Shown piece by piece: positions 25,373 to 60,821 of a DNA stretch of 64,000 nt (positions are counted from its first letter, which is position 1; each line of letters begins with the position of its first letter). Where the stretch lies: contig JAFYXW010000001.1 in the NCBI GenBank assembly GCA_017557865.1, forward strand, positions 1 through 64,000, read 5' to 3'. The notes under the pieces are model-generated. The model saw only the letters and a list, made by a program, of their open reading frames with translations, was not told the origin of the DNA and made no database searches. The position numbers and the translations under genes are program-made. The DNA is from Candidatus Saccharimonadota bacterium (GTDB taxonomy: Bacteria; Patescibacteriota; Saccharimonadia; Saccharimonadales; Saccharimonadaceae).

Positions 25373-26779
25373 ATGGATTCAGATAAGCGCGCACGCCACG
25401 AAAGCATTCGTGTTATCGTATCAGAATTTTTTATGGTGCTCGCAGTTGTTATTACTGTGATCATCTTGGCTTTTGTCGTGTCTGGATATTGGCTAAACTC
25501 AGATTTTGAAGTAGAGCGCCAAGGTTTACTCCAGATCTCTTCTTTTCCTACTGGCGCCGACGTTGAAATAGACGGCAATTCTTCCTGGATGCAGCGCACC
25601 AATACCAACAAAGTTCTGTCTAGCGGCGAACACACAGTTTCGCTTAGTAAAGAGGGCTACGATTCTTGGTCTCGCATTGTCAAAATTTCTGAAGGCCTAC
25701 TTTATAAGGTAGATTACCCACGTCTATTTTTGAAAGAGCGCAAAAAAGAATCAATTTATGATGCTTCTGGCACCACTTTTGCCACGGTTTCACCGGATCG
25801 TAATTCCCTGCTTTTAATCAATAAAACTACGGACTGGGAACTTCTAAATCTAAACAATGATAATCCAGAAGTCAAAACTATAGACGTCTCGGCTGTATTT
25901 AGCTCAGTTAGCAAAGCCGCTGGGGCTAGAACTGGTCTATTTTCGGGTAATATTATTCGTGCTGAATGGGACGCTAACAACGAGCATGTTCTGTTTGATG
26001 TAGAAGAAAATGGCCGCCACGAATGGGTAATTTTGAATGTTAAAAACCCAGAAAATAGTGTCAACCTTTCCAAGCTCTTTGACTTTAATTTTAGCGAAAT
26101 TAGAATTTTTGATAATTCCGCCAACACCCTACTGGCTTTACTCGACGGCAACCTTCGCAAAATCGACGTTGGTAGCCAACAGCTGTCCGCCATTATTGCA
26201 AAAGACGTGGTTAGTTACGATTTTCTAAACTCGGACATTGCCTTCTCTGCTAAAAACGTCAATGAAGACGAACCAAAATATTATGTTGGTATCACTAATA
26301 TTAACGGCGGAGATGTCGACACGGTTTATAATTCGGATAACTTGCCAAAAGTTTTGTATAGCCAGTTTTACGACAATAAATACGTCACAATTTTAGAAGA
26401 CGCAACCATTGCCGTTTACAAAAAAGATGATTTTTCGGAATTCTTCTCTGGCGAAATTAGCTTCACGCCTAACAAATATAAAGTTGGGCGCTTTGGCGAA
26501 TTTGTAATTATGAGCTCTGGCGAACGCCTAGCCACATTGGACATGGAAGCTCTTGCTATTACCGAATGGCAAACCAGCTCAAATCACTATGGATGGCTAG
26601 ACAGCAGCATGCTTTATGCAGTATCTACTGGTGAACTATCTGTCTACGATTTCGATGGTCAAAACCACCGCAAGCTTTCTTCAAACGTTTCTGAACGCTT
26701 GCCAGTTACCATCACCAACAACAAATGGCTGTATTATTTTAGTGACGACAAACTTACTCGTGAAGTAATTGCTAATTAG
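25373..26779 (+). CDS. Membrane-anchored PEGA-domain protein
   Basis: A 468-aa protein. A short basic N-terminus precedes a membrane span (about residues 15-40, VSEFFMVLAVVITVIILAFVV). A PEGA domain follows (about 52-115: LLQISSFPTGADVEIDG, then GEHTVSLSKEGYDSWSR). The rest is a beta-rich region of about 340 residues, with repeated short strands that could form a propeller. PEGA domains are usually extracellular and wall- or S-layer-associated. Its stop overlaps that of the sortase gene on the other strand by 4 bp. Confidence 0.75.
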   Translation: MDSDKRARHESIRVIVSEFFMVLAVVITVIILAFVVSGYWLNSDFEVERQGLLQISSFPTGADVEIDGNSSWMQRTNTNKVLSSGEHTVSLSKEGYDSWSRIVKISEGLLYKVDYPRLFLKERKKESIYDASGTTFATVSPDRNSLLLINKTTDWELLNLNNDNPEVKTIDVSAVFSSVSKAAGARTGLFSGNIIRAEWDANNEHVLFDVEENGRHEWVILNVKNPENSVNLSKLFDFNFSEIRIFDNSANTLLALLDGNLRKIDVGSQQLSAIIAKDVVSYDFLNSDIAFSAKNVNEDEPKYYVGITNINGGDVDTVYNSDNLPKVLYSQFYDNKYVTILEDATIAVYKKDDFSEFFSGEISFTPNKYKVGRFGEFVIMSSGERLATLDMEALAITEWQTSSNHYGWLDSSMLYAVSTGELSVYDFDGQNHRKLSSNVSERLPVTITNNKWLYYFSDDKLTREVIAN

Positions 26780-27954
26780 TTTCCAGTTAAGAAGTTCCAG
26801 ATTCCTTCAAAGAATCCTGGTTCGTTGCTTGGCATTTCGATGTTCTCGGTGTCGTCCACGCTGATTACGGTCTCCTCCTCGGCGCCTTCATAACTTGGCG
26901 AGATTTGCTCAGAAGTCACAAGTAAGCGATATCTGGAAGTGCCAAGCGGAGTACAAGTTACCAATGTGAGCAAAGGCTTGTTGGTCTCAATTTGTAAAGC
27001 ACTGATGTTGGTAGGTTCAACGACGGATTTTCGAACTACTTTATATGTATAACGTACGGATTTGTAGTTGATGTAAATTAAATCGCCATCTTCTAGACGT
27101 TCTAGGCCCGAAAAGATGTATTTGTATGGATTAGAACTATATACGTCGCCTGCCGAGTGCCCAGTGATCACCACGTTGCCAATTTCGCCTGGGAATGCAC
27201 TAGCCCCATTGATGCGATAATGCGCCACGCCGTTATTCATGGCGCCCATTACCTCGTTTACACTAATACCAAAATGAATTGGCACATCTACATTTAATTT
27301 TGGAATGATTAATCTTGGGTCTGGCGATACAGTTTGTGTAACCGTAGGATCCAAAGCTTCGATTTCAGAAGCCGGTACGTTGCCTGGCGAAACATAGGCC
27401 ATAATCGGCGCGAAAATCAGACGGTTGTATTGCAGGAATAGGATTAGAAGCACCACTGCTACACCTAGGAGAATTGGAATAAACTTGCGCATCCGGCGAG
27501 TTTTTTTAGCGTTTGTAGTCGCTTTGGAGCGAATTTTACGCCTAAGATCGTCTTTGATGCTATCGCCATCGGCAATTGTGAGGCCGGTTTTCCCATCGTT
27601 TTTAGGATTGGAATGTGCCAACGCATGCAAAATTTCTTCTTCCTCGGCTTGCTCGCGAGCCGCCTTTAAACGCTCTTTAGCGATGTAATTTTTGGCAGCA
27701 TTAGAATAATATTCGCTGTAATATTTTTGATAATAGTTTTGCCATTCCGAGTGGTATTTTTTCCAAGATTCTGAATTAATTTTGGTGGTAACCGGTTCAT
27801 CTTTCATGCGGGACTGGTTTTCGGTGACGCTAGCCGTGTGGGCTGCTTTTTTGGCAGACTCAGCATAAGCTGCCAGGACTTTTTTCCTGGCAATTGCGGC
27901 CGCTGCCTGTCTTTGCAGGTCACTTGAAGACTGCCCACCGTTTTCTGGATTCAT
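26776..27954 (-). CDS. Sortase with long cytoplasmic N-terminus
   Basis: Sortases cut LPxTG-like signals and join the protein to an amine on the cell surface. The 392-aa protein has a cytoplasmic N-terminus of about 150 residues rich in Lys/Ala/Glu, a membrane span (about 152-172, FIPILLGVAVVLLILFL) and the catalytic domain. The catalytic His is in VITGHSAGD, Cys in TLVTCTPLGTS and Arg in RYRLLV, in the usual order; TCTPxG is the pattern seen in class C-like and D-like enzymes. TATAAT ends 6 nt before the ATG at 27954; a longer frame upstream overlaps tRNA-Leu and is not used. It is the only sortase seen here, and the PDTG proteins at 53271-60821 are plausible substrates. Confidence 0.88.
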   Translation of the reverse strand: MNPENGGQSSSDLQRQAAAAIARKKVLAAYAESAKKAAHTASVTENQSRMKDEPVTTKINSESWKKYHSEWQNYYQKYYSEYYSNAAKNYIAKERLKAAREQAEEEEILHALAHSNPKNDGKTGLTIADGDSIKDDLRRKIRSKATTNAKKTRRMRKFIPILLGVAVVLLILFLQYNRLIFAPIMAYVSPGNVPASEIEALDPTVTQTVSPDPRLIIPKLNVDVPIHFGISVNEVMGAMNNGVAHYRINGASAFPGEIGNVVITGHSAGDVYSSNPYKYIFSGLERLEDGDLIYINYKSVRYTYKVVRKSVVEPTNISALQIETNKPLLTLVTCTPLGTSRYRLLVTSEQISPSYEGAEEETVISVDDTENIEMPSNEPGFFEGIWNFLTGN

Positions 27955-53270: not shown

Positions 53271-54950
53271 ATGGAAAGTATTTTTAAACTTATTGTGCAC
53301 GATGCTGATGTTGTGGTGCCAGATACTGGTATTCATACTGCTAGCAACGTGTCTAATGGTGATGCTAATTCAATTGGCATCATTCTTGCTGGGGTTTGCC
53401 TTACAATTGTTGTAGGCATTATTGCCCTTTCAATTATCAAACGTAAAAAAGCATGTGCTGGGCTAGTAGCAGCCGTTTTAATTGCTGGTCTCGCAATTGC
53501 TACTCCGATCATGAGTGCTAACGCTGCAAAAAGGGATATAGATTTCTCTGTCGCAGAAACAGTAACTGCTACGATAGATCGCGAAAAAGGTGAAACTTAT
53601 GTAGTGGTGCCAGTGGACATCACGTTAAACGAAGCAACGGATAATGGCTACGAACTATATATGTATGGCGGAGACCTTACCGACGGTACAAATACTATCA
53701 CGCAAGTATCCGCTGATGGTTCTAAGATTACTGAAGGAACCTGGGGTATTGTAGCCGGCGCAGACTCTACACCAGCTATAGATGACGAAGTGTGGAACCA
53801 AATCGGTACTTCTTCTTCCCCAAAGAAGGTATCCATTGCTGACGGCGAAATCGCTGCCGGTACGACCATTCGTGTTTACTACGGTGTATCCATAGACGAT
53901 AGCACGCCAGCTGGTGATTACACCACCACCATTGGCTTCTTGACAGAAGAAGACCTTGGTATGACCTTGGAAGAATCGTATGAAAATGCCGGAGCAGAAA
54001 AGATTACGGTTGGTTCCAGTTCTTATTACACAATGCAAAGTATGACCCCAGAGATTTGCGAACAAGCAGTTGAAAGCGAACTCCAAGTGGCAGACTCTCG
54101 TGACGAAAAAATCTATTGGATCGCAAAACTTAAAGACGGCAAATGTTGGATGACACAAAACCTAGACCTAGACCTAGTCCACACAGAAAACGATGCAGAC
54201 GCACTATATACTCACGAAAATACAGACCTCGGTTGGGAAGAAGGTTCTACCGCCACTTCTTGGAATCCTTCTTATTCCACTATTCCGGCATCTAGTATAT
54301 CTAGTTCAGGGTCAGTTGTAGATATAGAACAATACTGTTATAACCAAGAATATGATATACATGAAGGTGGGTATTGCTCTCTAGATGTTGGTGATTGGTA
54401 TTGGACGGACGCCTGGTATGAGTCAACTGAAAATAATTATCTAGATACAGCCGATAGTGGCGCAGGCGATAAGTTTAGGCAAACGCCATACCCAGGTAAT
54501 GGTGCCCATGGCCATGTAGGCAACTACTATGGTGGAGATGCCGCGACAGCTGAATCGTGGCAGAGATACTCTGCAGATTCTTCGGATTCTATTTGTCCTG
54601 CAGGATGGAAATTACCAATGATTGATATCTACGAGGGATGGAGGGACCCAGAATATAGCGACTATTATAAACTATTCTCAGAATATACGCACATTGACCC
54701 AGACTGGCTCGAAGGTACTACTGACGTAGAAATTACCTCAGCCCCACTCTACTTTATTCGTGCCGGTATGTATGATCTTACGTACGGCGAACAGTGGTCT
54801 AATAAGCTTGATTGGGCGGGCCATACAGGGTACTATTGGACACAACTCAGCATTCAGGATACTCAGATCAGCTCGGATAGCGTAGTAATATGGGACTATG
54901 GTGGTTACGACTCAAGTGTAGGAATGTCCGTCCGCTGTCTTGCAAGGTAA
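53271..54950 (+). CDS. Surface protein with N-terminal PDTG sorting-like hairpin and FISUMP domain (copy 1)
   Basis: A 559-aa protein. Residues 1-20 end in VVVPDTG (PDTG at 17-20). A membrane span follows (about 36-56), then KRKK (57-60), a second hydrophobic segment (63-81) and ANAA (83-86), a signal-peptidase-like site. So a sorting-signal-like unit is fused in front of a signal-peptide-like unit. An extracellular beta domain (about 90-240, with VVVPVDITLNEAT and VYYGVSIDD) precedes a FISUMP-like domain (MTPEIC, KDGKCWMTQNLDLDL, SICPAGWKLP, SVRCLAR). The family is known in Fibrobacter; the N-terminal hairpin is not one I recognise. Confidence 0.7.
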   Translation: MESIFKLIVHDADVVVPDTGIHTASNVSNGDANSIGIILAGVCLTIVVGIIALSIIKRKKACAGLVAAVLIAGLAIATPIMSANAAKRDIDFSVAETVTATIDREKGETYVVVPVDITLNEATDNGYELYMYGGDLTDGTNTITQVSADGSKITEGTWGIVAGADSTPAIDDEVWNQIGTSSSPKKVSIADGEIAAGTTIRVYYGVSIDDSTPAGDYTTTIGFLTEEDLGMTLEESYENAGAEKITVGSSSYYTMQSMTPEICEQAVESELQVADSRDEKIYWIAKLKDGKCWMTQNLDLDLVHTENDADALYTHENTDLGWEEGSTATSWNPSYSTIPASSISSSGSVVDIEQYCYNQEYDIHEGGYCSLDVGDWYWTDAWYESTENNYLDTADSGAGDKFRQTPYPGNGAHGHVGNYYGGDAATAESWQRYSADSSDSICPAGWKLPMIDIYEGWRDPEYSDYYKLFSEYTHIDPDWLEGTTDVEITSAPLYFIRAGMYDLTYGEQWSNKLDWAGHTGYYWTQLSIQDTQISSDSVVIWDYGGYDSSVGMSVRCLAR

Positions 54951-54962
54951 AGGAGGATAAAA

Positions 54963-57464
54963 ATGGAAAGTTTATTTAAACTAGTCGTACAAGATGGGGG
55001 CATTATAGTACCAGACACTGGTAACTATACTAGTAGCGCTGCAAATGGCGATATAAGCCTAATTGGCGTAATACTCGCCGGAATCTGTGTTGCTGTTGCC
55101 GTAGGCATTATTGCCCTTTCAATTATCAAACGTAAGAAAGCGAGCACAGGTACCGTGCTAGCCGTAATTGCAGGACTTGCGATTATTGCGCCGATCATAA
55201 ACAATGCAGAGTACTTTGCAAACGCTGCCATGAAACAAATGAATATTACGGTATCTGATATAATCACTGTCACAATCGATCGTAGTAAAAACGAAAGCTA
55301 TGTAGTGGTGCCAGTGGACATCACGTTAAACGAAACAACGGATAGCGGCTACGAACTATATATGTACGGTGGTGCCCTTACGGATGGCACCAATAGTATT
55401 GAGCAGGTTTCTGCCGATGGCTCTAAAATCATTGACGGAACCTGGGGTGTCGTAGCAGGCGCAGAATCTGCCCCAGCCATAGATGACGAAACATGGAATC
55501 AAATCGGTACTTCTTCTTCCCCAAAGAAAGTCTCCGCTGCCGATGGCGAAATCGCCGCCGGTACAACTCTACGTGTATACTACGGCGTAGCTATCGATGA
55601 TGACACACCAGTTGGTACCTATACTACAACGGTAGGCTTCCAGCTAAAACATGATGTTGACCTAACTCTAGGCGATGCATTTGAAGAATCTGGAGTAGAA
55701 AAAGTCACCGTTGGCCCAGATTCTTATTACCCAATTCAAGGTATGACTCCAGAAATTTGCAATAACACGGCTGTGATTCCGAGCACAATAGAAGCTGTTG
55801 ATATTCGCGACAACACTATTTACACTATTGGCAAGCTCGCGGATAACCGTTGTTGGATTTTAGGCAACCTAGCTCTAGATCTTACCGCAGAGGGCGCTAG
55901 CACCAACATCACTCCAGAAAATACCAACGCCGATACTACTTCCTTAAATTCCCTCTTTGGCATTGCTAACCGTAACGCTTCCCTCGATCCAGAAGGCAAT
56001 CTCGCCACGGCGGGTATTACCACCTGGACGTCCGGCTCCTCCTATTCGGCTCCTATGGTACTTACCGACTTCAAGAACACAACTAATCCAGACGATAGTA
56101 TAGCGGAATTAAAAGATAGCAAATACGGTGTTATGTATAATTACTGCGCCGCTTCTGCTGGTAGTTATTGTTATAACGGTGATGCTGGGTACGACAGGCC
56201 AAACACGGCTATAGATACCGTATACGATATCTGTCCTTCTGGCTGGCGCATGCCTGCGAGTAGCACTTATCATGCGGACGAGCGTCCAGATGCTGATGAG
56301 TATAAAACGCTTTATGCAGCATATGGCAACGACGCCACTGCTTTTCGTTCGGCTTTGAATTTACCTTTCTCTGGGCTATTTAACTTTACCTACGCTTCGG
56401 CAGGAAGCCAAGGCTCGTATGGAAACTACTGGTCTGCCACACGGTACGGCTATATTAATATGTATCTCATGAATGTCAGTTCTAGTGAAGCTGACCCATA
56501 CCGCAATTTCGATCGTGACATGGGACTTGCAGTTCGTTGCATTGCCCGTGACGGCAACGAGCCGGATTCGACACCAGTCGATCCAGACCCAAACACTACT
56601 ACTTTTGAAGAAGCATATACTGAAGCGAATAAGCCTAAAGACATCCCTTCTGGCAAGTATGCGCTAAGTGACATGTCCACAGCTATTTGTTCCGCAGTTA
56701 CTACCGGCCAGACCGCACGGCTAGTAGATACTCGTGACAATACCGTATATAACGTAGGTAAACTCGCAGACAACCGTTGCTGGTTACTAGACAACTTGGC
56801 TTTGGACCTCGTAGAAGTAAGCTTGGAGTCACTCCAAGGCAAAACCAATGCCTCGGATGAAACGCTTAGCTACCTAAAAGGTAATTCAACCCGCAACCAA
56901 TCTACTGATCCGAATGGCAATTACCCTACAGCTGGGGTGTCATACTGGGGATATGACAATAGTTATACGGCTCCACTAATTTCCGTTAGTGCCGTGGACT
57001 CTGCTTATACAAGTGACCCAATTTATGAGGCAAGCGATTGGAAATATGGTGCATATTATAATTACTGTGCCGCTTCTGCTGGTTCGTATTGTTGTAACTG
57101 GGGTAAAGGAACCGTTGACGCAACTGAAGATATTTGTCCGGCTGGTTGGCGTATGCCTACTGGCGGTGTTGGCGGAGAATTCCAAACTCTAGGGAACGCA
57201 ATTACTAATACCGACGGAACATACTTTGACGATTCCGAACAAGACCATCTATTTAGAAGAGTCACTCATTTGTCGATGGGCGGATGGATTTATAGCGGCA
57301 GCTTTAGCTTCCAAGGTTCCGGCGCTTATGTTTGGTCCTCTTCATATCAAAGTGGCGAAAACTCAATGATGAACATTCTATTCGTTGACGGTAGTTATGG
57401 AGTTGGATTAACAAATAGAAACAACGTAGCCTTTGGTAGCGCAGTTCGTTGTATCGCCAAATAG
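54963..57464 (+). CDS. Surface protein with N-terminal PDTG hairpin and two FISUMP domains (copy 2)
   Basis: The longest copy, 833 aa. It has the same N-terminal layout: IIVPDTG (17-20), membrane span, KRKK, second hydrophobic segment, FANAA. After the beta domain come two FISUMP modules, the first from MTPEIC near residue 258, the second from MSTAIC near residue 570; each has NRCW, ICPSGWRMP or ICPAGWRMP, and RCIA. A Pro/Asp linker (VDPDPNTTT) joins them. AAGGAGG precedes the ATG and there is only 12 bp from copy 1, so the two form an operon. The second module probably arose by duplication. Confidence 0.75.
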   Translation: MESLFKLVVQDGGIIVPDTGNYTSSAANGDISLIGVILAGICVAVAVGIIALSIIKRKKASTGTVLAVIAGLAIIAPIINNAEYFANAAMKQMNITVSDIITVTIDRSKNESYVVVPVDITLNETTDSGYELYMYGGALTDGTNSIEQVSADGSKIIDGTWGVVAGAESAPAIDDETWNQIGTSSSPKKVSAADGEIAAGTTLRVYYGVAIDDDTPVGTYTTTVGFQLKHDVDLTLGDAFEESGVEKVTVGPDSYYPIQGMTPEICNNTAVIPSTIEAVDIRDNTIYTIGKLADNRCWILGNLALDLTAEGASTNITPENTNADTTSLNSLFGIANRNASLDPEGNLATAGITTWTSGSSYSAPMVLTDFKNTTNPDDSIAELKDSKYGVMYNYCAASAGSYCYNGDAGYDRPNTAIDTVYDICPSGWRMPASSTYHADERPDADEYKTLYAAYGNDATAFRSALNLPFSGLFNFTYASAGSQGSYGNYWSATRYGYINMYLMNVSSSEADPYRNFDRDMGLAVRCIARDGNEPDSTPVDPDPNTTTFEEAYTEANKPKDIPSGKYALSDMSTAICSAVTTGQTARLVDTRDNTVYNVGKLADNRCWLLDNLALDLVEVSLESLQGKTNASDETLSYLKGNSTRNQSTDPNGNYPTAGVSYWGYDNSYTAPLISVSAVDSAYTSDPIYEASDWKYGAYYNYCAASAGSYCCNWGKGTVDATEDICPAGWRMPTGGVGGEFQTLGNAITNTDGTYFDDSEQDHLFRRVTHLSMGGWIYSGSFSFQGSGAYVWSSSYQSGENSMMNILFVDGSYGVGLTNRNNVAFGSAVRCIAK

Positions 57465-57553
57465 TTTTATAACCTTGTATTTCGATACAGCTTATGCTAA
57501 ATTTAAAACAGAAAAGGTCATACATAAAAAATGGAAAGTCTATTTAAACTAAT
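57447..57553 (+). repeat. 107-bp direct repeat, first copy
   Basis: An uninterrupted 107-bp identity with 59157-59263 (offset 1710). It covers the end of one paralog, the promoter, leader and the first codons of the next. The first mismatch is at 57554. This suggests recent duplication or gene conversion. Confidence 0.9.
57475..57503 (+). promoter_or_regulatory. Promoter of the third paralog
   Basis: TTGTAT (57475-57480), 17 bp, TAAATT (57498-57503) with extended TGC. It lies within the 107-bp direct repeat; the same promoter recurs at 59185-59213. Confidence 0.65.
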
Positions 57554-59174
57554 CGTGCAAGATGCCGATATTGTAGTACCAGACACCGGTGCTCAAACTG
57601 CCAGCAATATATCTAACGGTGTTGCTGATTTTATTGGCATCATTCTTGCAGGAGTCTGCCTCACAATTATTCTAGGCATTATTTCACTAGCAGTCATTAA
57701 ACGTAAAAAAGCACGCGCTGGGCTAGTAGCAGCTATAATTGCAGGGCTTGCGGTTACTGCTCCGATTATAAATAATGCAGGGTATTTTGCAGACGCTGCC
57801 ATGAAAAAAATGAATATTACAGTGTCTGATACAATTACTACCACCATCAATCGCGAAAAAGGCGAAACCTTTGCGGTAGTGCCAGTAGACATTACGTTAA
57901 ACGAAGCTACAGACAATGGTTATGAACTATATATGTATGGCGGTGAGCTTACGGACGGCACTAACACTATCTCATTAGTATCCGCTGACGGTTCCAAAAT
58001 TACTGACGGGACCTGGGGTGTCGTAGCAGGCGCAGAATCTGCCCCAGCCATAGATGACGAAGCATGGAACCAAATTGGTACTTCTTCTTCCCCGAAGAAA
58101 GTATCTACAGTGGAAGGCGAAATTACTGCCGGCTCCACTGTCCGTGTTTATTATGGTGTAGCTATCGATGATAACACTCCAGCCGGGACTTATACTACTA
58201 CTATCGGTTTCCAACTAAAGCACGATGCTGATATGACTTTAGGTGAAGCTTTTGAAGATGCTGAGATTGAACAAGTTCCAGTTGGCCCAACTCCATACTA
58301 TCCAATCCAAGCTATGACCACCGAAATCTGTAATAACGCAACTATCCCAAGCACACTAGAAGTAGTTGATGTTCGCGACAATACTATTTATACTATAGGC
58401 AAGCTTGCTGATGACCGTTGCTGGCTCCTAGACAACATGAGACTAGATTTGGTAACGGCTAGCGTCGAATCGCTCCAAGGAAATACCAACGCGCCAGACG
58501 AAGCTCTGTCTTATCTAAAGGGCGTGGCATCTCGCAACCCAGATGAAGAACCAGAGGGTAACTACGCAATCAAGCCGGTTCAATATGGTATCGCTGACCA
58601 CTATGAATGGACTTACGACTTCTCACTTTCTGTTCCAAAAATCTGGGTAGAAAACAAAGATGATATGAACTCAAACGATGTTATTGAGGATCTTAGAACA
58701 ACCAGATATGGTATTCTCTATAACTTCTGTGCTGCCTCTGCAGGTAGCTACTGCTATGGTGATGGCCAGAGGGGTGGCCCGGGCTACGACTATCCAGTTG
58801 ATGGGCAAAATAAGCCAAATACTGCTATAGATGCTCCATATGATATCTGCCCTACCGGTTGGCGCCTACCAACAGGCCTGGTTTATGATGCTACGGACAT
58901 GCCAGACGGTGGCGAATGGCAAAATCTGCACGCTGCATATAACAACAATGGTATAGCAACCCGTACAGCTGCAAATTTGTCGCTAGCTAGCTACTTTGAC
59001 TTCTCTGGTAGCGTTCACCCAGAAAACCAAGGCTCCATCGGTGATTACTGGTCCTCAACGTTTACTGGCCCAAGATATATGGCTATGACTTATGTATTCG
59101 ACGATTATCTATATTTCGGCGGTGACGGTTACCGTCTCTTCGCCGGGATGTCGGTCCGTTGTATCGCCAAATAG
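57531..59174 (+). CDS. Surface protein with N-terminal PDTG hairpin and FISUMP domain (copy 3)
   Basis: A 547-aa paralog with the same order: IVVPDTG (17-20), membrane span, KRKK, second hydrophobic segment ending near FADAA, beta domain, then FISUMP (MTTEIC, DDRCWLLDNMRLDL, ICPTGWRLP, SVRCIAK). AAAAGGTCATACATAAAAA precedes the ATG. Close to copy 4 in its first codons because of the 107-bp repeat. Wall or surface attachment is inferred, not shown. Confidence 0.75.
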   Translation: MESLFKLIVQDADIVVPDTGAQTASNISNGVADFIGIILAGVCLTIILGIISLAVIKRKKARAGLVAAIIAGLAVTAPIINNAGYFADAAMKKMNITVSDTITTTINREKGETFAVVPVDITLNEATDNGYELYMYGGELTDGTNTISLVSADGSKITDGTWGVVAGAESAPAIDDEAWNQIGTSSSPKKVSTVEGEITAGSTVRVYYGVAIDDNTPAGTYTTTIGFQLKHDADMTLGEAFEDAEIEQVPVGPTPYYPIQAMTTEICNNATIPSTLEVVDVRDNTIYTIGKLADDRCWLLDNMRLDLVTASVESLQGNTNAPDEALSYLKGVASRNPDEEPEGNYAIKPVQYGIADHYEWTYDFSLSVPKIWVENKDDMNSNDVIEDLRTTRYGILYNFCAASAGSYCYGDGQRGGPGYDYPVDGQNKPNTAIDAPYDICPTGWRLPTGLVYDATDMPDGGEWQNLHAAYNNNGIATRTAANLSLASYFDFSGSVHPENQGSIGDYWSSTFTGPRYMAMTYVFDDYLYFGGDGYRLFAGMSVRCIAK

Positions 59175-59263
59175 TTTTATAACCTTGTATTTCGATACAG
59201 CTTATGCTAAATTTAAAACAGAAAAGGTCATACATAAAAAATGGAAAGTCTATTTAAACTAAT
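59157..59263 (+). repeat. 107-bp direct repeat, second copy
   Basis: Identical to 57447-57553. It carries the stop of copy 3, a promoter (59185-59213), the leader and the first codons of copy 4. Confidence 0.9.
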
Positions 59264-60821
59264 TGTGCAAGATGCCGATATTGTAGTGCCAGATACTGGT
59301 ACCTATACCACTGGTGGCGCTGCAAATGGCGATGCAAACCTAATTAGTATTATTCTAGCTAGCGTTTGTTTAACTATTATTGCTGGTATCATTGCACTAA
59401 GAATTATCAAAAGAAGAAAGAAAAGCAAAGAGGCCTGCGCCGGTATCGTAGCAGCTATAATTGCAGGGCTTCTAGTTACTGCTCCAGCCATTAATACCAA
59501 TGCACTCAACAAAGAACTAGACATCACTGTAGCAGAAACGATTACTGCAACGATAGATCGTGGAAAAGGTGAAACCTACGTAGTAGTTCCGGTAGACATT
59601 ACTCTAAACGAAGCTACTCCAAATGGTTTTAACCTATATATGTATGGCGGTGAGCTTACGGACGGCACTAACACTATCTCATTAGTCTCTGCTGATGGTT
59701 CTAAAATTACTGAAGGAACTTGGGGCGTTGTAATCGACGCAGATTCCGAACCAGCCATAGACGATGAGGTATGGGGACAAATTGGCACCGCTTCTTCTCC
59801 GAAGATGGTTCTCTCTGGTACAGACGAAGTTCCTGCCGGCGCTACTGGCCGCATCTACTATGGCGTGGCGATAGACGATGACATTCCAGCTGGAACTTAT
59901 ACTACAACTATTGGTTTTTCAGTAGAAAACTATCTTGGTATGACCTTGGAAGAATCATATGAGAATTCCGGGGCGGAAAAGATTACAGTTGGTTCCAACT
60001 CTTATTACACAATGCAAGGCATGACCACCGAGATCTGTGAAAATACAACCATAGTCCCAGACACCCTTCAAGTTGTGGATACTCGTGATAACACTATTTA
60101 TACAATTGGCAAACTCGCAGATAATCGTTGTTGGCTTCTCGATAACCTTGCGCTAGACCTTCTGGACCCTACTGTCCAATCTAATATATCCCCTTCTAAC
60201 ACTAATGCGGACGCAGATTCTCTCACCTCGCTATTTTCTGGTAATCGTGCCAATGGTAATAAGTATGCTACTGCTGGTATTGCTACCTGGACATCTGGTT
60301 ATTCCTATTCTGTTCCAATGATATATACCGCATCGAAGGATGTTACAAATCCATCAGATAGCATAGAAGAAGTACGAAATAGTAAATTTGGCATATATTA
60401 TAATTACTGTGCTGCATCTGCCGGCAATTACTGTTATGGTAATGATACAAGCTACGGTATCGGTTATGACAAGCCGAATACTGCTATTGATACCGAGTAT
60501 GATATCTGTCCATCTGGCTGGCGTATGCCTACAAGTTATACCTACGACGCTACGACCCGCCCAGACGGAGGCGAATACGGCGCCATTATCACAGCATATA
60601 ATGATGATGTCACTAATGTCCGTTCTGCTCTGCTTTTGCCTTCCTCTGGATACTTTAGTTTTGATAATGGATCTTTGTACGACTGGAATGGCTACTTCTG
60701 GGCCTCTACGATGTACGATGTTGCCAGCACGTTCCATTTGTATTTCAGCTCTAGCAGCGTTGATTCGATGTATATACAAAATCGTTACGCTGGCCACTCT
60801 GTACGCTGTATCGCTAAATAA
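59241..60821 (+). CDS. Surface protein with N-terminal PDTG hairpin and FISUMP domain (copy 4)
   Basis: A 526-aa paralog. PDTG at 17-20 is followed by a membrane span, a longer basic loop (KRRKKSKEACAG), a second hydrophobic segment and an Asn/Ala-rich site (TNALNKE). The beta domain then leads to a FISUMP domain with MTTEIC, NRCWLLDNLALDL, ICPSGWRMP and SVRCIAK. It is closest to copy 3 upstream and to copy 1 in part of its beta domain. It has its own promoter within the repeat. Confidence 0.75.
   Translation: MESLFKLIVQDADIVVPDTGTYTTGGAANGDANLISIILASVCLTIIAGIIALRIIKRRKKSKEACAGIVAAIIAGLLVTAPAINTNALNKELDITVAETITATIDRGKGETYVVVPVDITLNEATPNGFNLYMYGGELTDGTNTISLVSADGSKITEGTWGVVIDADSEPAIDDEVWGQIGTASSPKMVLSGTDEVPAGATGRIYYGVAIDDDIPAGTYTTTIGFSVENYLGMTLEESYENSGAEKITVGSNSYYTMQGMTTEICENTTIVPDTLQVVDTRDNTIYTIGKLADNRCWLLDNLALDLLDPTVQSNISPSNTNADADSLTSLFSGNRANGNKYATAGIATWTSGYSYSVPMIYTASKDVTNPSDSIEEVRNSKFGIYYNYCAASAGNYCYGNDTSYGIGYDKPNTAIDTEYDICPSGWRMPTSYTYDATTRPDGGEYGAIITAYNDDVTNVRSALLLPSSGYFSFDNGSLYDWNGYFWASTMYDVASTFHLYFSSSSVDSMYIQNRYAGHSVRCIAK

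Follow-up and report, generated by a model that had tools for sequence, protein, structure and literature searches.

A sorting-signal-like unit near the N-terminus of Saccharibacteria surface proteins and its possible role in anchoring by the front end

Introduction

The sorting signal of sortase substrates is thought to lie at the C-terminus, which is where annotation searches for it, and a sortase can attach a chain by its C-terminal end only. In the C-terminal signals described by the LPXTG_anchor (TIGR01167) and Gram_pos_anchor (PF00746) models, a PxTG motif is followed by a hydrophobic span and a basic cluster. Here we analyze a 64,000-nucleotide stretch of Saccharibacteria DNA (the window), in which four tandem genes encode surface proteins with these elements in the same order. 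In contrast to the C-terminal signals, the unit lies near the N-terminus with no signal peptide preceding it, and is followed by a second membrane span and a large ectodomain.

Three other described systems bear on these proteins. Their C-terminal domain is related to that of the FISUMP surface proteins (Fib_succ_major, PF09603), with matches that range from clear to weak among the copies; the domain itself is ordinary, and only its attachment is unusual. The beta domain that follows the spans, D1, is a divergent relative of the beta domain found in the pilin of the CPR Pam pilus (NF058581) and in stand-alone D1 proteins of other Saccharibacteria; unlike in those proteins, D1 here comes after a membrane hairpin and is itself followed by FISUMP or repeat domains at the C-terminus. 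Finally, in chaperone-usher and other donor-strand pilins (FimF, FimG, PapG, EcpA) a beta domain likewise depends for its completion on a strand from a distant part of the chain, as is predicted here, whereas in the window proteins two membrane spans and a sortase motif separate strand and domain, and there is no significant fold or sequence match to these pilins.

Results

Four tandem proteins share an N-terminal head

A sequence-only reading of the window had described four tandem proteins with a nearly invariant head, a PDTG motif and two spans, and both the positions and the layout are as it gave them (Table 1). The aligned heads read M-E-S-[LI]-F-K-L-[IV]-V-x-D-x-x-[IV]-[IV]-V-P-D-T-G, followed by the first span, KRKK or KRRKK, the second span and an Ala-rich site; copies 3 and 4 share the start MESLFKLIVQDADIVVPDTG. 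Against the Fib_succ_major cut-off of 33.9 bits, copy 2 scores above (46.9), copy 3 just under (32.4) and copy 4 lower (16.8), and copy 1 has a weak NCBIfam match only. The 694-kb genome of the window also encodes a fifth copy (contig C23; 59% identity over 232 amino acids) and a sixth protein of the same plan with a different peptide, MSSRIMVNVAGPDSIIVPDTG (contig C16).

Within codons 1–20, copies 3 and 4 show 4 synonymous and 0 non-synonymous differences, and copies 3 and 5 show 12 and 3, respectively. Because these differences are mostly synonymous, we conclude that the head is translated and under selection. We considered a mis-called start codon as the origin of the head; purifying selection on codons 1–20, together with conservation in other species, rules this out.

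Table 1. Features of the window discussed in the text, with the basis of each assignment
Feature	Coordinates	Strand	Basis
Sortase (the genome has three); candidate enzyme, with a putative link to the head proteins	26776..27954	-	Pfam
Copy 1: strand-PDTG-hairpin-D1-FISUMP surface protein, 559 aa	53271..54950	+	ORF, head alignment, weak FISUMP match
Copy 1 N-terminal peptide (strand + VPDTG)	53271..53330; PDTG codons 53319-53330	+	Head alignment, motif pattern
Copy 1 first span (residues 35-56) + KRKK	53373..53450	+	Head alignment, charge analysis
Copy 1 second span with signal-peptidase-like ANA site	53451..53525	+	Head alignment, charge analysis
Copy 1 D1 beta domain	53535..53939	+	
Copy 2: 833 aa, second FISUMP-like unit	54963..57464	+	ORF, head alignment, Pfam Fib_succ_major
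Copy 2 N-terminal peptide	54963..55022; PDTG codons 55011-55022	+	Head alignment, motif pattern
Copy 2 first span + KRKK	55062..55139	+	Head alignment, charge analysis
Copy 2 second span with Ala-rich site	55140..55232	+	Head alignment, charge analysis
Copy 2 D1 beta domain	55239..55643	+	
Copy 3: 547 aa	57531..59174	+	ORF, head alignment, Pfam
Copy 3 N-terminal peptide	57531..57590; PDTG codons 57579-57590	+	Head alignment, motif pattern
Copy 3 first span + KRKK	57633..57710	+	Head alignment, charge analysis
Copy 3 second span with Ala-rich site	57711..57800	+	Head alignment, charge analysis
Copy 3 D1 beta domain	57810..58214	+	
Copy 4: 526 aa; residues 1-229 modelled	59241..60821	+	ORF, head alignment, AlphaFold2
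Copy 4 N-terminal peptide	59241..59300; PDTG codons 59289-59300	+	AlphaFold2 (residues 2-10 strand), motif pattern
Copy 4 first span + KRRKKSK	59343..59429	+	AlphaFold2 helix residues 32-58, charge analysis
Copy 4 second span with Ala-rich site	59430..59504	+	AlphaFold2 helix residues 66-79, charge analysis
Copy 4 D1 beta domain	59523..59915	+	Including AlphaFold2 model, strands from residue 100 on

Membrane topology

The charges flanking the two spans are asymmetric, with a mean net charge of -3.9 before span 1 and +6.2 between the spans (n=50), and the N-terminal side is less positive than the inter-span loop in every one of the 50 proteins. By the positive-inside rule, this places both protein ends outside, in agreement with the earlier suggestion of an external N-terminus: an N-out, C-out arrangement is favored in 50 of 50 cases. 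Since no signal peptide precedes the motif, export would rely on N-out insertion. An Ala-containing site follows the second span in all heads; in several copies it lies about 11–12 residues beyond the hydrophobic core, which is long for signal peptidase I, and cleavage by signal peptidase is therefore likely, not certain.

The N-terminal peptide is predicted to be a strand of D1

All 44 distinct N-terminal peptides carry hydrophobic residues at positions i, i+2 and i+4 near their start, a pattern that shuffled peptides reproduce in a mean of 5.4 and a maximum of 13 cases. We modelled two heads with AlphaFold2. In the model of copy 4 (229 residues, 43 sequences), residues 1–10 have a pLDDT of 96 and residues 2–10 form a strand as judged by DSSP; in that of a relative of about 25% identity (268 residues, 36 sequences), the first ten residues have a pLDDT of 94 and residues 2–11 form a strand. 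The linker and the loops around the hairpin fall below a pLDDT of 50 in both models. As all remaining strands of both models are part of D1, the hydrogen-bond partners of the N-terminal strand must be in D1, docking being read here from the pLDDT and DSSP summaries of two models whose alignments comprise about 40 sequences, with many paralogs from two species among them. The prediction is thus of a D1 that is split in the chain: one strand comes first, then the sorting unit and the second span, and then the rest of the domain. Splicing the N-terminal peptide in front of D1 and scoring it with a stand-alone D1 profile gave a mean gain of -0.27 bits, the same as for shuffled peptides, so the idea that the peptide is the ancestral first strand of D1 finds no support in the sequence.

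The predicted docking changes how the fate of the peptide should be viewed. The sequence-only reading had proposed that a 19-residue peptide, cut by a sortase, would be ligated to an acceptor, and that the large domain would be released or anchored separately. This expectation needs revision, because with the peptide as a predicted strand of D1, cleavage would tie D1 to the acceptor of the peptide, not separate them. For the same reason we regard it as very improbable that the sortase frees a peptide of 19–48 residues as a polymer unit or tag that is joined to lysines of other peptides or proteins, with the large domain going its own way. The window peptides are short and have one lysine (K6), as such a unit would; 10 of the 44 distinct peptides lack lysine altogether, which also disfavors a peptide lysine as a pilin-type nucleophile.

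In the cell, docking of the peptide and D1 could also occur in trans. The N-terminal strand would then fill D1 of the next molecule and build a thread or pilus by donor-strand exchange, with a sortase fixing the basal strand to the envelope. Consistent with this, the Pam pilin model matches D1 weakly (best window score 24.6 bits, cut-off 55), the Foldseek lists for D1 include the donor-strand pilin domains FimF, FimG, PapG and EcpA, and many D1 relatives outside the genus are stand-alone secreted proteins of about 200 amino acids, which have a conventional signal peptide but lack a PxTG head, some of them encoded in tandem arrays followed by a membrane-anchored protein. Against it, all pilin matches are below significance, PamT (NF058579) has no match in the window's own genome, and a large C-terminal domain with a two-span tether is awkward for the main subunit of a pilus. 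On balance, we consider donor-strand exchange improbable, and, with a score under the cut-off and PamT not found, we do not assign these proteins to the Pam pilus. Neither sequence search nor Foldseek at E<=0.001 returned a solved relative of D1.

PxTG is conserved within a variable linker

To follow the motif across the family, we used 51 proteins with a complete N-terminus, picked by D1, not by the motif, and drawn from about a dozen genomes including that of the window; many members are paralogs from two species. The D1 relatives come from metagenome-assembled genomes of uncultured Saccharibacteria, the source of which, where stated, is the gut of buffalo, yak, goat or sheep. PxTG precedes the first span in 48 of the 51, and the remaining three carry one-letter variants at the same position (PDAG in L159, AANTG in L163 and PDSG in L164). 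Many heads (L046, L052, L091, L092, L131 and L137) contain an additional, degenerate copy of PDT or PDTG ahead of the intact motif, e.g. VVPDTDADTNAPDTG.

Across 26 aligned, divergent heads, nothing before D1 is invariant except M1 and the residues P, T and G of the motif, and the linker around the motif is free in length and sequence. When the 44 distinct peptides are shuffled, PxTG arises in about 1 of 44; the motif is not there by chance. PDTG is thus conserved well above its flanks in divergent homologs, an outcome that the sequence-only reading had named as support for its idea.

The unit resembles the C-terminal sorting signals of the genus

Ordinary C-terminal sorting signals occur in the same genus. 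By pattern and profile searches that covered P[DN]TG only, the window's own genome has six N-terminal and two C-terminal units, all with PDTG; in the two C-terminal units, found by pattern, APDTG is followed by a span and a basic tail. One of the ordinary C-terminal APDTG proteins of this genome (L227:1921-3801, near 86 kb of contig C1) adjoins a membrane-anchored protein that resembles the one found after stand-alone D1 genes elsewhere (L241 and L242), and one of these two has a weak match of the WxLIP type.

Across species, N- and C-terminal units have the same preferences, with V or A in front of P, D or N as x, frequently F at +2, and either S or T at +3 (32 of 38 N-terminal and 18 of 22 C-terminal units), giving the common extended motif [VA]P[DN]TG-x-F-[ST]; this agreement is inflated, as most of the C-terminal units were gathered by means of a profile that had been made from N-terminal and internal ones. 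Both pattern-found C-terminal units have F at +2 but lack S or T at +3. Beyond the motif, a hydrophobic span follows in 50 of 50 proteins and the subsequent loop is net positive in 48 of 50. The curated LPXTG_anchor model recognizes the N-terminal unit of one relative (18.0, cut-off 15.9), and curated LPXTG models match just 5 of 43 heads at E<=1. The motif ends at residue 19–48 of proteins that are mostly 500–1200 residues long. The likeness to a C-terminal sorting signal that had been noted from the layout extends to the motif and its flank, which agree with those of the C-terminal signals of the genus.

The head profile finds significant matches in the same genus only, where the unit occurs at C-terminal, internal and N-terminal positions; among 295 genomes of the order, there is no strong match outside the genus. 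When the N-terminal 232 residues of the five copies were used in a single scan, the named genome collection yielded no close relatives, and the more distant relatives were collected with a profile. In the internal versions (L039, L040, L055, L074, L076 and L125, from genomes G157, G187, G175, G314, G292 and G290), a signal peptide and a first ectodomain are followed by PNTG or PDTG, a span, a basic cluster, a second span and a second ectodomain.

These data bear on the strongest rival of the anchor that we propose below, namely an uncut hairpin with both ends outside, in which D1 is completed by the strand, and PxTG is a remnant from an event that fused a C-terminally sorted protein with a secreted protein and has been retained for the sake of membrane-proximal structure. 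The internal versions of the unit are the intermediates that such a fusion would be expected to leave, and strand docking alone, with no cut, would preserve the topology. An uncut hairpin does not readily explain why P, T and G are invariant when the surrounding linker is free, nor why the motif flank matches that of C-terminal signals, since a structural relic is not expected to track sortase specificity. We therefore judge the uncut hairpin rather unlikely.

Sortases and copy number

The protein earlier taken for a sortase in the window is a genuine one: it scores 82 bits against a cut-off of 26.6 and contains TLVTC and a downstream Arg. Two further sortases of the same genome are located on contig C20 (L228:1264-1959 and L229:1382-1888), and one of them adjoins secY and ribosomal protein genes. 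As sortases are nearly universal in the genus (172 of 174 genomes), their co-occurrence with heads is uninformative. In the two genomes with no sortase match, G296 and G303, the best head-profile matches are weak (E about 0.01).

Two genomes, G191 and G316, encode about 20 or more N-terminal-unit proteins each (e.g. L043-L052, L091-L097 and L128), and several of the genes are found at contig ends; copy number and position suggest a large, recombining paralog family.

Discussion

Based on these observations, we tentatively favor a two-cut, strand-locked N-terminal anchor, to which we give a little under an even chance. A complete sorting unit and a signal-peptide-like span would sit inside D1, right after its N-terminal strand. 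The strand and PxTG would be outside, the basic cluster in the cytoplasm, and the second span would bring the chain back out of the cell, to be followed there by the remainder of D1 and then the FISUMP or another C-terminal domain; the N-terminal strand is predicted by AlphaFold2 to fold back into D1. A sortase, possibly that of the window or one of the other two, would cut PxT|G and join Thr to an envelope amine, and signal peptidase may cleave behind the second span. D1 would stay bound to its own strand, and the protein would be held at its front with the C-terminal domain pointing outward, the reverse of the orientation of ordinary sortase-anchored proteins.

The anatomy of the head is well supported, and both cuts are putative. 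The full sequence of events, in which a sorting signal has been inserted in a folded domain, the hairpin is cut on one side by sortase and on the other by signal peptidase, and the pieces stay together as one beta domain that anchors the protein by its front end, is a possibility that we hold with less confidence than even odds would imply.

A search of published papers, few of them from subscription journals, for sorting signals at N-terminal or internal positions and for sortases combined with strand complementation found nothing of this kind, in line with the sequence-only reading, which knew of no N-terminal sorting signal of this kind. The head architecture suggests that a protein can be attached to the cell through its front, not its tail, in a manner that is undescribed in the papers searched. 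If the proposed anchor is correct, the existence of a large family with a front-end signal would mean that annotation overlooks sortase substrates, and the family would provide a natural model of a cleaved protein whose two pieces are kept together by a single strand. It would also explain how Saccharibacteria could display C-terminal domains outward. Saccharibacteria are tiny and parasitic, and with about 20 or more copies in some species, the family likely matters for how these parasites meet other cells.
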